From contig JAFTFT010000005.1 in the NCBI GenBank assembly GCA_017458335.1, forward strand, positions 124,001-188,000: 64,000 nucleotides of DNA, given 5' to 3'. Made by a program: the position numbers and the translations under genes. This DNA is from Oscillospiraceae bacterium (GTDB lineage: Bacteria > Bacillota > Clostridia > Oscillospirales > Oscillospiraceae). The notes beneath the pieces are model-generated. The model was not told where the DNA came from, did no database searches, and was given only the letters and a program-made list of their open reading frames with translations. Position 1 is the stretch's first letter; each line of letters starts with the position of its first letter. Shown here one piece after another: positions 55,178 to 59,371 of this stretch.

Positions 55178-55972
55178 TCAAGAGAGCAGAACCGAATCGG
55201 TCTCCATCGGTGTGCCGGCGAGTGCGGCAAACTTCTCAAGCAGTTCCTGGCGCGTGAGGTGTTTCTTTTCCTCCCCGCGGATATCCAAGATAATCTGACC
55301 CTCGTTCATCATGATCAGGCGGTTGCCGTGCTGGATCGCATCGGTCATGTTATGGGTGATCATGAGGGTGGTCAGGTTATGCTCCGCGACGATCCGGTCG
55401 GAGAGATCGAGAACCTTCGCGGCAGTGGCCGGATCCAGGGCCGCGGTATGCTCATCGAGCAGCAGCAGCTTTGGTTCCTGCAGAGAAGCCATCAGCAGCG
55501 TGACAGCCTGGCGCTGGCCGCCGGATAGCAGGCCGACTCTCGCGGTCATCCGGTCTTCCAGACCGAGGCCGAGGGTCTTCAGCCGCTCGCGGTATTCCGC
55601 GCGCTCTTCCTTGGTCACGCCCCAGCCGAGACCGCGTTTCTGCCCGCGGCGCTTCGCGAGGGCGAGGTTCTCCTCCAGCTGCATGTTGGGAGCGGTGCCC
55701 ATCATCGGGTCCTGAAACACACGTCCGATCAGGAAGGCTCGCTTATGCTCGGGCAGAGCGGTGACATCATTCCCGTCCAGCACGATGCGCCCCTCGTCAA
55801 TCGGCCAGACGCCGGCGATGGCGTTGAGCATGGTGGATTTTCCCGCGCCGTTTCCGCCGATGACGGTGACAAAGTCACCGGGATCCAAGTGGAGAGAGAG
55901 CTTGTGCAGGGCACGCTTTTCATTGATGGTGCCGGGGTTGAAGGTCTTGCTGATCTCGAACAGGTCAAGCAT
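55178..55972 (-). CDS. ABC transporter ATP-binding protein (TrpZ-like)
   Basis: This 264-residue ATPase (ATG after AAAGGGGG) has Walker A GGNGAGKST, Q-loop VFQDPMMGTAPNMQLEENLALA, signature LLSGGQRQAVTLLMA, Walker B LLLLDEHTAALDP and H-loop MITHNM. It is of the group that works with ABC_sub_bind binding proteins and livH-like permeases (TrpXYZ, aromatic amino-acid or nucleoside-like uptake). It overlaps the permease gene by 8 bases. Confidence 0.92.
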   Translation of the reverse strand: MLDLFEISKTFNPGTINEKRALHKLSLHLDPGDFVTVIGGNGAGKSTMLNAIAGVWPIDEGRIVLDGNDVTALPEHKRAFLIGRVFQDPMMGTAPNMQLEENLALAKRRGQKRGLGWGVTKEERAEYRERLKTLGLGLEDRMTARVGLLSGGQRQAVTLLMASLQEPKLLLLDEHTAALDPATAAKVLDLSDRIVAEHNLTTLMITHNMTDAIQHGNRLIMMNEGQIILDIRGEEKKHLTRQELLEKFAALAGTPMETDSVLLS

Positions 55973-56915
55973 GGGTCTTCGCCCCCTTTTGTTTGAATTT
56001 AGCAAAGGAGCTGATCCGCTGGCCGCGAAGATAGGGGACCGCGAGGAACAGCGCAACCACGATGGCGGTGAAGAGTTTGAGGTCGTTGGAATTCAGGCGC
56101 AGCCAGAGCACAATGACGACGACCAGGTAGTAGATGATACCGCCAATGACGGTGAAGCTCAGCGTGAAGTAGAAGTTGATATACTTCTTCAACAGAGCGT
56201 TGCCCAGCACTTCGCCAATGATGACCGCAGCCAGGCCGATGACGATGGCGCCGCGGCCCATGTTGATATCTGCAAAGCCCTGATACTGGCTCATCAGACC
56301 GCCGGCGAGCGCGACGATGCCGTTGGAGATGGAGAGGCCCAGGACCTTCATGTTGTCGATGTTAATACCGAGCGCACGGCTCATGGCGGGGTTGCTGCCG
56401 GTGGCACGGAGGGCGGAACCCTGCTCGGTGCCGAAGTACCAGTAGAACAGCGAGACCAGCGCGATGGCGATGAGCGCCGAAGTCAAGATGGCAAGGGGAA
56501 TGTTGCGCGAGGAGATCAGAAGATGATACTTGTCGACGCTGACGGCCTTGTTTGCCGCCATCCCCATGATGTGAAGGTTGATGGAGTAGAGCGCAAACTG
56601 GGTCAGGATCCCGGCGAGAATCGCGGGAATTCCGAACTTGGTGTGAAGCATGCCGGTGCAGAAACCCGCCAGCATCCCGGCGAGAATCGCGACCAGCAAT
56701 GCCGCCCAGGCGGGCCAGCCGGCCAGAATCAGCATGACCGTAACCGCGCCGCCCGTCGTGAAGGAACCGTCGACCGTCAGGTCGGCCACGTCCAGCAGAC
56801 GGAAGGTGACATAGATGCCAAGCGCCATAATCCCCCAGATCAGGCCCTGAGAGATGCCGCCCGGCATATTGCGAAGAAGTTTCAGAACATTCAGAGAAGC
56901 GAAATATTCACTCAC
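55965..56915 (-). CDS. ABC transporter permease (TrpY-like)
   Basis: This 316-residue protein has about nine hydrophobic segments and the branched-chain-permease-like pattern: LIWGIMALGIYVTFRLLDVADLTVDGSFTTGGAV, LHTKFGIPAILAGILTQFALYSINL, TGSNPAMSRALGINIDNMKVLGLSISNGIVALAGGLMSQYQGFADINMGRGAIVIGLAAVIIGE. This is the permease type paired with the ABC_sub_bind proteins. It is in one operon with the binding protein upstream and ATPase downstream. Confidence 0.92.
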   Translation of the reverse strand: MSEYFASLNVLKLLRNMPGGISQGLIWGIMALGIYVTFRLLDVADLTVDGSFTTGGAVTVMLILAGWPAWAALLVAILAGMLAGFCTGMLHTKFGIPAILAGILTQFALYSINLHIMGMAANKAVSVDKYHLLISSRNIPLAILTSALIAIALVSLFYWYFGTEQGSALRATGSNPAMSRALGINIDNMKVLGLSISNGIVALAGGLMSQYQGFADINMGRGAIVIGLAAVIIGEVLGNALLKKYINFYFTLSFTVIGGIIYYLVVVIVLWLRLNSNDLKLFTAIVVALFLAVPYLRGQRISSFAKFKQKGAKTHA

Positions 56916-56980: not shown

Positions 56981-57937
56981 TTACTCAGCAGTCTCGATGG
57001 CTTCGAAGCCTTCGGGAATCTCAACGCCGAGCAGCTCGCAGTTGACGGCATTGTACTTGCCGGTGAAGGGGGCGTACTCAATCTCCATGGTGGAGATGTC
57101 GGCGCCGTTGGCCAGAATTTCAGCGGCCATCTTGCCGGTGACAACACCGAGATCATAGTAGGAGATGGAGAGCGTGACGCAGCCGCAGCCGGCGCAGAGG
57201 CCTTCCTCACCCGCAACAACGGGAACCTTCTTCTCCAGGCAGATGTTGTTGATCAGCTCGGCATTGGAGGCAGCGGTGTTGTCGGTCGGAATGTAGAGCA
57301 CGTCGCTGTCGTCGCAGGCGTTGGCAGCAACCTGGGCAACGTCATTGGAATCGGCAAAGGTGTAGTCCTTGACCTTGTAGCCCATCTCTTCAAGGATCGG
57401 GCGGATCTCGTCGGCCTGGAACTTGGAGTTGGGCTCGCCGGAGCAGTAGAGAAGGCCGACGTTCTTTGCATCGGCAAAGACCTGCTGCAGCAGCTCAGCC
57501 TGAGCCTGAGCCGGGACACCGTCGGAGGTGCCGGAGATGTTGGTGCCGGTGGCGCCGTTCCAGTCGTCGATGTCAAGGGCACTGGCGTAGTCGGTGACCG
57601 AGGTGCCGAGGATGGGAATCTGGTTGGTGGCGGACTGGGCGGCCAGCAGAGCCGGGGTGGCATTGGCGAGGATCAGGTCGACCTCGTCGCTGACAAACTG
57701 ATTGCAGATGACCGCGCAGGTGGCGGAGTCACCGGAAGCGTTCTGGACAGAGAACTTGACGGCGTCTTCACCGAGTTCCTCTTTCAGAGCATCCTGGAAG
57801 CCCTGGGTTGCGGCATCAAGCGCGGGATGCTGAACCAGCTGGCAGATACCGACGTTATAGGCGGGAGCGGCGAAAGCGGCGGCGCTCAGACTGAGAACCA
57901 GGACAGCCATCAGAACAAATGCAAAGATCTTTTTCAT
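56981..57937 (-). CDS. ABC transporter substrate-binding protein (TrpX-like)
   Basis: This 318-residue protein has a signal peptide (MKKIFAFVLMAVLVLSLSAA followed by AFA), again a signal-peptidase-I type with no lipobox Cys. The mature part is ABC_sub_bind: YNVGICQLVQHPALDAATQGFQDALKEELGEDAVKF, ILANATPALLAAQSATNQIPILGTSVTDY, YIPTDNTAASNAELINNICLEKKVPVVAGEEGLCAGCG. Relatives bind tryptophan or other aromatic or hydrophobic ligands. A Tyr/Phe-rich attenuator leader upstream points to an aromatic amino acid here. Confidence 0.9.
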   Translation of the reverse strand: MKKIFAFVLMAVLVLSLSAAAFAAPAYNVGICQLVQHPALDAATQGFQDALKEELGEDAVKFSVQNASGDSATCAVICNQFVSDEVDLILANATPALLAAQSATNQIPILGTSVTDYASALDIDDWNGATGTNISGTSDGVPAQAQAELLQQVFADAKNVGLLYCSGEPNSKFQADEIRPILEEMGYKVKDYTFADSNDVAQVAANACDDSDVLYIPTDNTAASNAELINNICLEKKVPVVAGEEGLCAGCGCVTLSISYYDLGVVTGKMAAEILANGADISTMEIEYAPFTGKYNAVNCELLGVEIPEGFEAIETAE

Positions 57938-57984
57938 TTGGGGTTCCTCCTGTATATAGGTTTTTTGAATCAGCGTGAGGTATG

Positions 57985-58012
57985 AAAAAACCGCCCGGAG
58001 AAGTCCGTGCGG
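57985..58012 (-). terminator. Attenuator terminator of the TrpX-like operon
   Basis: The minus strand has CCGC-A-CGGA pairing with TCCG-G-GCGG (8 bp, one mismatch), followed by TTTTTT, 50 bases before the binding-protein start. The segment GCCGCAC (58007-58013) can instead pair with GTGCTGC (58048-58054), giving an antiterminator. Confidence 0.75.
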
Positions 58013-58063
58013 CTTAAATCATTCGGTTTATAAAAATGACAATCATTGCAGCACAAACTTCTA

Positions 58064-58120
58064 TTACCTTTTCGTAAAGTAATAGCGGTAGTAGTATGCA
58101 GCAAAGAAATCGGCTTTCAT
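58064..58120 (-). CDS. Tyr/Phe-rich attenuation leader peptide
   Basis: An 18-codon frame with a strong GGGAGG site 6 bases before the ATG encodes MKADFFAAYYYRYYFTKR: five Tyr and three Phe in 18 residues. The Tyr codons TAT-TAC form the 5' arm of a stem CTATTAC/GTAATAG (58061-58086) whose 3' arm reaches the stop codon. Stalling at the Tyr run when tyrosyl- or phenylalanyl-tRNA is scarce would free the region downstream to form the antiterminator. This is the arrangement of trp/phe-type attenuators, here in front of an ABC transporter. Confidence 0.8.
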   Translation of the reverse strand: MKADFFAAYYYRYYFTKR

Positions 58121-58148
58121 AAAGCGCCTCCCGTTGAAACTGAGGCTC

Positions 58149-58177
58149 ACTTTAGCACTTTTTGGTGCTAAAGTCAA
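58149..58177 (-). promoter_or_regulatory. Promoter of the TrpX-like operon with internal operator
   Basis: Minus-strand TTGACT, a 17-base spacer and TAAAGT. A perfect inverted repeat TTTAGCAC-N6-GTGCTAAA (58151-58172) fills the spacer, a good repressor site. Start expected near 58142, before the leader peptide. Confidence 0.65.
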
Positions 58178-58185
58178 GAGCACTC

Positions 58186-58214
58186 TTGTATTTCCGGGGA
58201 AAGAATGTTATCAT
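58186..58214 (+). promoter_or_regulatory. Promoter of the small membrane protein/TSUP operon
   Basis: Plus-strand TTGTAT, a 17-base spacer and TATCAT, 33 bases before the start codon; divergent from the TrpX-type promoter. Confidence 0.5.
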
Positions 58215-58247
58215 GTACAAAAATTTGAAGGAAAAGAGAAAAAGATT

Positions 58248-58592
58248 ATGAAATATGTCATCGGCGCTTTTCTCGGCCTCCTCTGGGGCGCCCTGGTCGC
58301 ATGGCTGAACTCCCGGATCAACAAAGCTGCGATTGAGAAAAACAGCACCAAGGCCATGATGGGGGCCAGCATGGGCCGGACGGCCATCGACATTGCCGCG
58401 CTGGGACTGGTCTTCCTGCTGCGCAACGTCCTGCCGGGTAATTTTGAGGCGAAAATCGTCGGGACGGCGGCATCCCTGGGGCTGCTGACGGTGTTCTTTG
58501 CCTTCCAGCTCTCCAGGCCGGAGCCGAAAGAGAAAACCGGGACAGGCGCACAGACGGAGAAAACAGAAAACCCGGGAGAAGAGACAAAGTGA
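58248..58592 (+). CDS. Small membrane protein
   Basis: This 114-residue protein (MKYVIGAFLGLLWGALVAWLNSRINKAAIEKNSTKAMMGASMGRTAIDIAALGLVFLLRNVLP) has three or four hydrophobic segments and a charged, Glu/Lys-rich tail. The pattern is like ATP-synthase-I/AtpR-type small membrane proteins, but no ATP synthase genes are nearby, so I leave it unnamed. It overlaps the TSUP gene by 4 bases (GTGA). Confidence 0.65.
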   Translation: MKYVIGAFLGLLWGALVAWLNSRINKAAIEKNSTKAMMGASMGRTAIDIAALGLVFLLRNVLPGNFEAKIVGTAASLGLLTVFFAFQLSRPEPKEKTGTGAQTEKTENPGEETK

Positions 58593-59371
58593 TGCACGCG
58601 ATCTTCTTCCCGATGGAACTTACCTGGAAAATGGTCCTCATCGTACCGGTCGGCGTGTTTCTTGCCTCGGTTGTGGACGGAATCGCGGGCGGAGGCGGGA
58701 TGATCTCGCTTCCGGCCTATTTTCTTGCCGGGCTTCCGGCGCATCTGGCCCTGGGGACGAACAAGCTCTCTTCCTGCATCGGAACCTCGGTTTCCGCGGG
58801 GCGCTTTATCCGCGGCGGTTTCGTGGACTGGAAACTGGCGGCGCCGTCGGCGGTACTGGCGATCATCGGATCCTATTTCGGGACCAAACTGCAGCTGGCG
58901 GTGGATGAGCGCTATCTCAAGTGGCTGCTTGTGGTGATTCTGCCGCTGGTGGCGGTGGTGGTCCTGCGGCAGCACAGCTTCCCCGAGGAGCGGGGAGACA
59001 TTGCGCCCGGAAAACAGATGGCGATCGTACTGCTCGCCTCGCTGGTCATTGGAACCTATGACGGATTCTACGGACCGGGGACAGGGACGTTTCTGATCCT
59101 GATCTTCTGCAATCTGGCGAAACTGGACCTGCGCACCGCTTCGGGCAACGTCAAGGTGGTGAACCTCTCCAGCAACATCGGCGGCGTCACGACGGCCCTG
59201 CTGAACGGAAAGGTGTTTGTGGCGCTGGGCCTGATCGGAGCGGTGGCCTCCGTCGCGGGACATTACATCGGCTCTGGCCTTGCCATCAAGGACGGCTCGA
59301 GAATTGTGAGACCCGTGATCATCGTGGTGCTGAGCCTGCTGCTCATCAAGGTGGTCACGGAGCTGATCTGA
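58589..59371 (+). CDS. TSUP-family (TauE/SafE) transporter
   Basis: This 260-residue protein has about eight hydrophobic segments in two repeated halves, each beginning with a family signature: GIAGGGGMISLPAYFLAGLPAHLALGTNKLSS and GTYDGFYGPGTGTFLILIFCNLAKLDLRTASGNVKVVNLSSNIGG. TSUP proteins move sulfite, sulfoacetate, taurine-like or other organic anions. Start is GTG at 58589 or ATG at 58592. It is divergent from the TrpX-like operon. Confidence 0.88.
   Translation: MMHAIFFPMELTWKMVLIVPVGVFLASVVDGIAGGGGMISLPAYFLAGLPAHLALGTNKLSSCIGTSVSAGRFIRGGFVDWKLAAPSAVLAIIGSYFGTKLQLAVDERYLKWLLVVILPLVAVVVLRQHSFPEERGDIAPGKQMAIVLLASLVIGTYDGFYGPGTGTFLILIFCNLAKLDLRTASGNVKVVNLSSNIGGVTTALLNGKVFVALGLIGAVASVAGHYIGSGLAIKDGSRIVRPVIIVVLSLLLIKVVTELI

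Follow-up and report, generated by a model that had tools for sequence, protein, structure and literature searches.

Transcription attenuation through a leader peptide is textbook knowledge for Trp, His, Phe, Leu and Thr, with the enterobacterial trp, his, phe, leu and thr operons as the standard cases, and the known attenuators work kinetically. T-box leaders bind tRNA directly and have no leader peptide. In the accessible part of one report, tyrosine operons are described as T-box regulated and phenylalanine as controlled by attenuators in other species (PMC1262725). His leader-peptide attenuators have been described for biosynthesis and transporter genes in Firmicutes; as far as the accessible part of that report extends, they differ from the element presented here in reading His codons and in belonging to Peptostreptococcaceae, Erysipelotrichales and the Bacillus cereus group (PMC9413887). 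The uORFC-13-1 motif, which precedes aroF, resembles the present element in combining a candidate Phe-containing upstream ORF with a terminator, and ribosome-mediated control has been proposed for it (Brewer et al. 2021, PMC8632094). It differs, by description in the available part of that paper, in being restricted to Acholeplasma and environmental sequences and in containing at least one Phe, with no Tyr readout or transporter target described there. The TrpX transporters of Strep. suis are likewise ABC_sub_bind aromatic amino-acid importers under a cis-acting RNA; in the accessible part of the source, this RNA is a T-box and the substrate is tryptophan (PMC9382623). Finally, C. difficile CD0873 has the same tyrosine-contacting Glu and Tyr as the binding protein studied here, and the term “T-box” has 0 occurrences in the available text of the CD0873 paper (PMC6816091). 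Searches of open-licence full texts brought up no tyrosine-reading leader peptide.

The window analyzed here, a 64,000-nucleotide stretch of an Oscillospiraceae genome, contains an element which shares with the enterobacterial attenuators a short residue-rich ORF, a pause hairpin, an antiterminator, a terminator with a T run and, in a second copy elsewhere in the genome, the predicted control of synthesis genes. Unlike these, it combines Tyr with Phe, is found in Oscillospiraceae-like Clostridia, is associated with an importer as well as an aro-tyr-phe operon and has no match in Rfam 15. Mechanisms of this kind are known; what looks new is the specificity, the lineage in which it occurs and the association of one element with both an importer and a pathway. 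The features of the locus, all on the minus strand and in window coordinates, are as follows.

58172..58177, minus strand: promoter-like -35 element TTGACT, 17-base spacing to the -10 element
58149..58154, minus strand: -10 element TAAAGT, with TG just before it
58149..58174, minus strand: perfect palindrome with two 10-bp arms, ACTTTAGCAC-N6-GTGCTAAAGT, covering the promoter and conserved in the genus
58127..58132, minus strand: Shine-Dalgarno sequence GGGAGG of the leader peptide
58064..58120, minus strand: leader peptide ORF MKADFFAAYYYRYYFTKR, 18 codons with 5 Tyr and 3 Phe, conserved in the genus
58076..58085, minus strand: pause hairpin arm 1b CTATTACTTT, containing Tyr and Phe codons
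58061..58070, minus strand: pause hairpin arm 2a AAGGTAATAG, containing the stop codon
58048..58060, minus strand: arm 2b AAGTTTGTGCTGC, 5' strand of the antiterminator
58001..58013, minus strand: arm 3 GCCGCACGGACTT, common to antiterminator and terminator
57988..58015, minus strand: terminator hairpin, arms 3 and 4, -14.8 kcal/mol
57985..57990, minus strand: T run of the terminator
57946..57951, minus strand: Shine-Dalgarno sequence AGGAGG of the binding-protein gene
56981..57937, minus strand: ABC_sub_bind (PF04392) solute-binding protein with a tyrosine-type pocket (E244/Y260)
55965..56915, minus strand: ABC permease (BPD_transp_2)
55178..56056, minus strand: ATPase component of the transporter operon; the listed start is an early TTG, and translation probably begins at an inner ATG

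A sequence-only reading of this DNA had proposed an 18-residue peptide with five Tyr and three Phe between the promoter and the binding-protein gene, a pause hairpin (CTATTAC/GTAATAG) formed by its Tyr codons, a GTGCTGC/GCCGCAC antiterminator and a terminator followed by TTTTTT, and all of these parts were recovered. The leader ORF runs from an ATG at 58120 to a TAA stop ending at 58064 and is preceded by its own Shine-Dalgarno sequence, downstream of one of 2 promoter-like sites in the scanned stretch (0.5 expected). The proposed pause pairing extends to a hairpin of 10 bp between 58076-58085 and 58061-58070, and the proposed antiterminator, which has one mismatch, lies within the longer pairing of arms 2b and 3, where 12/13 positions are paired. 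The terminator reads AAGCCGCACGGA-CTTC-TCCGGGCGGTTT and continues into six consecutive T; a generic terminator scan of 57800-58400 found none, presumably because the stem is mismatched and part of the T run lies inside it. At the sequence level, the locus therefore presents a predicted Shine-Dalgarno-preceded ORF, conserved aromatic codons, a 1:2 hairpin overlapping these codons and mutually exclusive 2:3 and 3:4 helices with a T run, the features by which an attenuator is recognized. The transporter operon adjoins a divergent gene for a TauE/SafE family membrane protein (window 58589-59371, plus strand).

The comparison of homologous operons for Tyr runs, suggested in the sequence-only reading, was carried out in the genus, where a protein search matched the binding protein in 48/61 genomes. 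Fifty loci were taken, comprising 46 matches with at least 53% identity and four distant paralogues (L048-L051), with two further contig-end fragments left out. The upstream region was readable in 48 of the 50, L009 and L014 being dropped as having no start in the contig, and 44 of the readable loci were of the closer kind. A leader with the 2b motif and a matching terminator arm was found in 34/44 of these homologues. Outside the 34, L041 and L045 have Tyr-rich leaders of different sequence, the leader of L046 is rich in Phe but lacks Tyr, and no recognizable leader was seen in 7/44 (L024, L025, L037, L039, L040, L043 and L044). The 34 leaders together comprise 694 residues, including 145 Tyr, 98 Phe and 1 Trp, with both Tyr synonyms in use (TAT 77, TAC 68) and Phe outnumbering Tyr in 5/34. 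An ATG ORF 12-40 codons long that follows a Shine-Dalgarno sequence and encodes five or more aromatic residues was present in 32/34 leader regions compared with 9/680 dinucleotide shuffles; as the sequences are related, these and the other counts are not independent. Related operons without Tyr-rich leaders had been named as the observation that would speak against a Tyr readout, and here the outcome was divided: the leader is kept in most homologues, while the seven leaderless operons, the Phe-only leader and the five leaders richer in Phe go the other way.

Support for the alternative helices was sought in their covariation across the 34 leaders. RNAalifold alone gave only the 1b:2a and 3:4 helices of the genus leaders and no 2:3 helix, so the latter was examined separately, both with anchored positions and as a structure specified in advance. 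When the two strands of the antiterminator are lined up by their conserved cores, helix position 12 is paired in 33/34 leaders, with six standard pair types, and 41% pair when partners are swapped between species. Over helix positions 11-13, 90/102 cells pair, compared with a permuted mean of 61.2 (sd 4.2, maximum 77 in 5000 permutations). This was further seen on a MAFFT alignment, where 97.9% of 387 cells of the 2:3 helix are paired vs 24.5 to 50.0% when the helix is slid by 1-3 columns, and the covariation score was 0.235 vs 0.151, the former being reached by 0/500 shuffles. Two of five measures for this helix, namely pairs with two-sided changes and further pair types, were not above shuffles, and one core mismatch (T vs C or T) is retained in 34/34 leaders. 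In the pause hairpin and terminator predicted by RNAalifold, two-sided changes occur at 13/19 pairs; in the pause hairpin, Tyr-to-Phe changes are matched by changes in the opposite arm, for example in L003 and L017. Arm 2b hardly varies, and the covariation of the pause hairpin covers 1b:2a, not 1a:2b.

The 34 genus leaders were used to build a covariance model (R1), from which the 2:3 pairing was omitted. R1 matched 45/61 genus genomes, 113/300 family genomes (in 50/106 genera) and 32/295 genomes drawn from the order, 23 of these being outside the family. The genus and family matches correspond to 191 distinct places, 170 of which were examined for the downstream gene; the others were 4 genus places before transporters already within the 34, 2 family places before transporters already covered and 15 family places with weak matches (E 7e-5 to 1e-3). 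DAHP synthase (aroF) was found downstream of 123/170 places (33 in the genus, 90 beyond), and the tyrosine-type binding protein downstream of 38/170 (30 in the genus, 8 beyond). A single place of the 170 precedes aroB, and 8/170 precede none of the reference proteins. The genome of the window itself has a second copy of the element at G000:C25:29748-29873 (L138, L447), MKAFRFASYYYYFTDKLR, followed on one strand by genes for DAHP synthase, prephenate dehydrogenase, 3-dehydroquinate synthase, EPSP synthase, chorismate synthase and chorismate mutase-prephenate dehydratase, that is, aroF-tyrA-aroB-aroA-aroC-pheA. In the aroF leaders, 86/123 of which could be anchored for the 2:3 test and 37/123 could not, native partners gave 11.88 pairs vs 11.29 for swapped partners (maximum 11.57 of 200), a consistent effect, though smaller than that in the genus leaders. 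Two of the eight places without a reference protein downstream (L279, L334) are at contig ends.

Among the 80 best-scoring named loci for the transporter, 10 have this leader, all from uncultured or metagenome-assembled Oscillospiraceae, Clostridia, Clostridiales or Bacillota bacteria, several with isolate names that point to a ruminant source; Gemmiger, Roseburia, Blautia and others in the same set gave no R1 match at E 0.01. In five loci from other genera (L062, L066, L067, L071 and L079), inspection by eye showed aromatic-rich ORFs and terminator-like hairpins of a different architecture before the same transporter, which are possibly other attenuators.

The codon content of the leader tends to vary with the gene downstream. 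Specifically, the Tyr/(Tyr+Phe) share is 0.59 in the 38 transporter leaders and 0.47 in the 123 aroF leaders, a difference with a per-leader Mann-Whitney p of 2.8e-5 that is computed on sequences which are not independent. The share is 0.82 in the leaders before two symporter genes, 0.29 before aroB (a single case), 0.19 before two ligase genes and 0.17 before pheA (a single case, L293, where the element precedes the chorismate mutase-prephenate dehydratase gene). The symporter genes (L284, a PF00474 match, and L332, assigned by eye) encode sodium:solute symporters and are candidate tyrosine symporters. The Phe-rich leaders of L309 (by match) and L311 (by eye) stand before AMP-binding genes that we named phenylacetate-CoA-ligase-like and that perhaps serve phenylalanine synthesis from phenylacetate. 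Another leader (L303) has two Trp codons before a PALP enzyme gene, the name trpB-like being our assignment; this is a single case, and the 123 aroF leaders together hold 13 Trp codons. We consider it reasonably probable that these RNAs form a widespread, retunable aromatic leader of Oscillospiraceae-like Clostridia, in which one scaffold with codons exchanged per gene would take the role that the T-box has in other Firmicutes and which, within the literature searched, would be without precedent as a leader peptide that reads tyrosine. Under this reading, the assignments would be Tyr plus Phe for aroF-tyrA-pheA and a Tyr bias for the tyrosine importer and the sodium symporter. Phe would be read for pheA and the phenylacetate-CoA-ligase-like gene, and Trp would be added for the trpB-like gene.

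Folding was modeled on RNA that ends with arm 3, with a ribosome covering 13 bases counted from the first base of the A-site codon. At this stage, with arm 4 still to be transcribed, the 2:3 helix of the 34 leaders forms with the ribosome at 137/145 Tyr and 90/98 Phe codons, compared with 3/34 stop codons and 6/34 free leaders. The untranslated leader of the window is one of these six, so that its “off” state by default depends on later displacement of the 2:3 pairing by the terminator. This test does not single out aromatic codons, as the antiterminator is also freed at 350/451 non-aromatic sense codons (227/243 aromatic); since a stall at most sense codons releases 2:3, aromatic specificity would come from the codons at which the ribosome waits and not from the structure. 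This outcome, together with the fact that several Tyr codons make up arm 1b of the conserved hairpin, is what could be expected if Tyr and Phe codons were kept for RNA base pairing only and the leader sensed translation in general. Such an explanation is very unlikely, as aromatic codons are also common outside the hairpin, TAT and TAC are both used for Tyr, the residue content shifts with the downstream gene and the same RNA stands before Tyr/Phe synthesis genes. In equilibrium folds with the full terminator, the leader of the window behaves as in the textbook case: the antiterminator forms with the ribosome at all eight aromatic codons, and the terminator when the ribosome is at the stop codon or absent. 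Across the 34 leaders, the terminator wins at 113/145 Tyr and 84/98 Phe positions; termination is thus predicted at most aromatic stalls, and the switch, if it works, must be kinetic.

The sequence-only reading had called the transporter TrpX-type, a label that did not hold: the binding protein scores 219.2 bits against the TrpX model (NF041285), below its cut-off of 390, and its pocket is of the tyrosine type rather than the tryptophan type, with Glu and Tyr at the two sites in place of the Ala/Gln of the tryptophan receptor SP1069. The best solved relative is C. difficile CD0873 (PDB 6HNI; 169.8 bits, 232.6 with a profile), which, according to the accessible part of its description, binds tyrosine via Glu-263 and has Tyr-279 where the tryptophan receptor has Gln (PMC6816091). 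E244 and Y260 align without gaps to these two residues, the published numbering having been assigned to the chain from the 16-residue distance between the two positions. The Glu and Tyr pair is present in 42/42 genus homologues long enough (L029 and L047 stop short of the pocket) and in 80/80 of the best-scoring named loci, though only 10/80 have the leader. From these residues we infer that the protein is probably a tyrosine receptor of the CD0873 type and not a TrpX, in keeping with the tyrosine or phenylalanine part of the earlier prediction that the transporter takes up tyrosine, phenylalanine or a precursor.

The paralogues differ at the Glu site and share a Tyr at the second site in all four cases. 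In L048 and L049, Tyr stands in place of the Glu, and the gene lies behind an Rfam T-box whose specifier position, read by eye, is UUC (Phe); they are possible phenylalanine receptors. L050 and L051 have Ala at this site and a T-box-like leader reading UGG (by eye), in both cases below the Rfam gathering score. L051, the second ABC_sub_bind gene of the genome of the window (G000:C35:315600-318300; leader 65.8 bits vs the Rfam threshold of 93), is a possible tryptophan receptor. These paralogues bear on two alternatives. As related ABC_sub_bind genes in the same genomes are under T-box control, the leader described here could itself belong to the T-boxes or to some other known class of leader that senses tRNA or a metabolite. 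We give this hardly any credence, as an Rfam 15 covariance search of the leader returned neither RF00230 (T-box) nor any other family at the gathering score or up to E=1. For 11 of the 80 named loci, T-boxes before the transporter were looked for with Rfam (E up to 0.01), and there was no match. The second alternative is that the attenuator is real and the signal is chiefly phenylalanine or common to the aromatic residues, the transporter carrying phenylalanine or an aromatic precursor and not tyrosine. Phe codons are indeed conserved alongside Tyr, the two interchange at the same positions with compensation in the stop-codon arm, Phe exceeds Tyr in five leaders and one homologue has a Phe-only leader. 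The pocket, however, holds a Glu, the residue that binds the tyrosine hydroxyl, where the Phe and Trp receptors have Ala, the Tyr share is higher in transporter than in aroF leaders, and the paralogues in which Tyr replaces Glu sit behind T-boxes reading Phe, so that we regard this alternative as unlikely and a tyrosine importer as the preferred reading.

The palindrome over the promoter, which is not mentioned in the sequence-only reading, is a presumed repressor operator. A genus pattern, ACTTTAGC-N10-GCTAAAGT, searched with at most 1 mismatch and with R/Y allowed at the inner base, occurred at 42 places in 36/61 genomes, compared with 13 places for a backwards control pattern. By coordinates, 34/42 places lie before this transporter gene and 2/42 (G046, G054) just upstream of an aroF leader. 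The arms are the same TTTA/TAAA as in the operator motif of HisR, a member of the TrpR family, given as cacTTTA-N6-TAAAgtg in the accessible part of the source (PMC9413887), but with 14 instead of 6 bases between them. An N6-type HisR site with one mismatch lies inside the palindrome, a pattern for which the backwards control gave 8 matches per strand vs 3. Genes of the TrpR/HisR family are present in 56/61 genomes, with one in the genome of the window. The palindrome is also conserved in leaderless transporter operons of the genus, for example L037, L040, L043 and L044, as would be anticipated if control were exerted by a repressor at the palindrome only, next to a constitutive terminator and an unrelated small ORF. 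Against this stand the covariation of the antiterminator, which involves arm 3 of the terminator, and the association of the leader with aroF, where palindromes are found at so few places; control by the repressor only is therefore highly improbable.

Taken together, the conservation, the covariation and the second copy before the aro operon support the peptide attenuator with a Tyr/Phe readout proposed in the sequence-only reading. The locus is very probably a ribosome-mediated leader-peptide attenuator in front of a tyrosine ABC importer, which it controls in response to the charging of tRNA-Tyr and tRNA-Phe. Stalling and antitermination, which we infer from the parts of the leader, their conservation and covariation and the genes downstream, would proceed as follows. 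With ample Tyr and Phe, the ribosome would reach the stop codon in the pause hairpin and cover arm 2b, allowing the terminator to form. When Tyr (or Phe) is scarce, it would stall in YYYRYYF and leave arm 2b free to pair with arm 3, giving read-through into the genes for the binding protein, the permease and the ATPase. Leader RNA left untranslated would also terminate, and the palindromic operator over the promoter may provide a second, DNA-level control. As the aroF-tyrA-aroB-aroA-aroC-pheA operon of the same genome would be under the same element, uptake and synthesis would share one signal.

The element may thus offer a sequence-level handle on the balance between tyrosine uptake and synthesis in rumen and gut Clostridia. 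Transporters for which TrpX is the nearest curated model would be re-labelled as probable tyrosine importers, and the codon content of the leader is a possible predictor of the substrate or product of neighboring genes of no known function.
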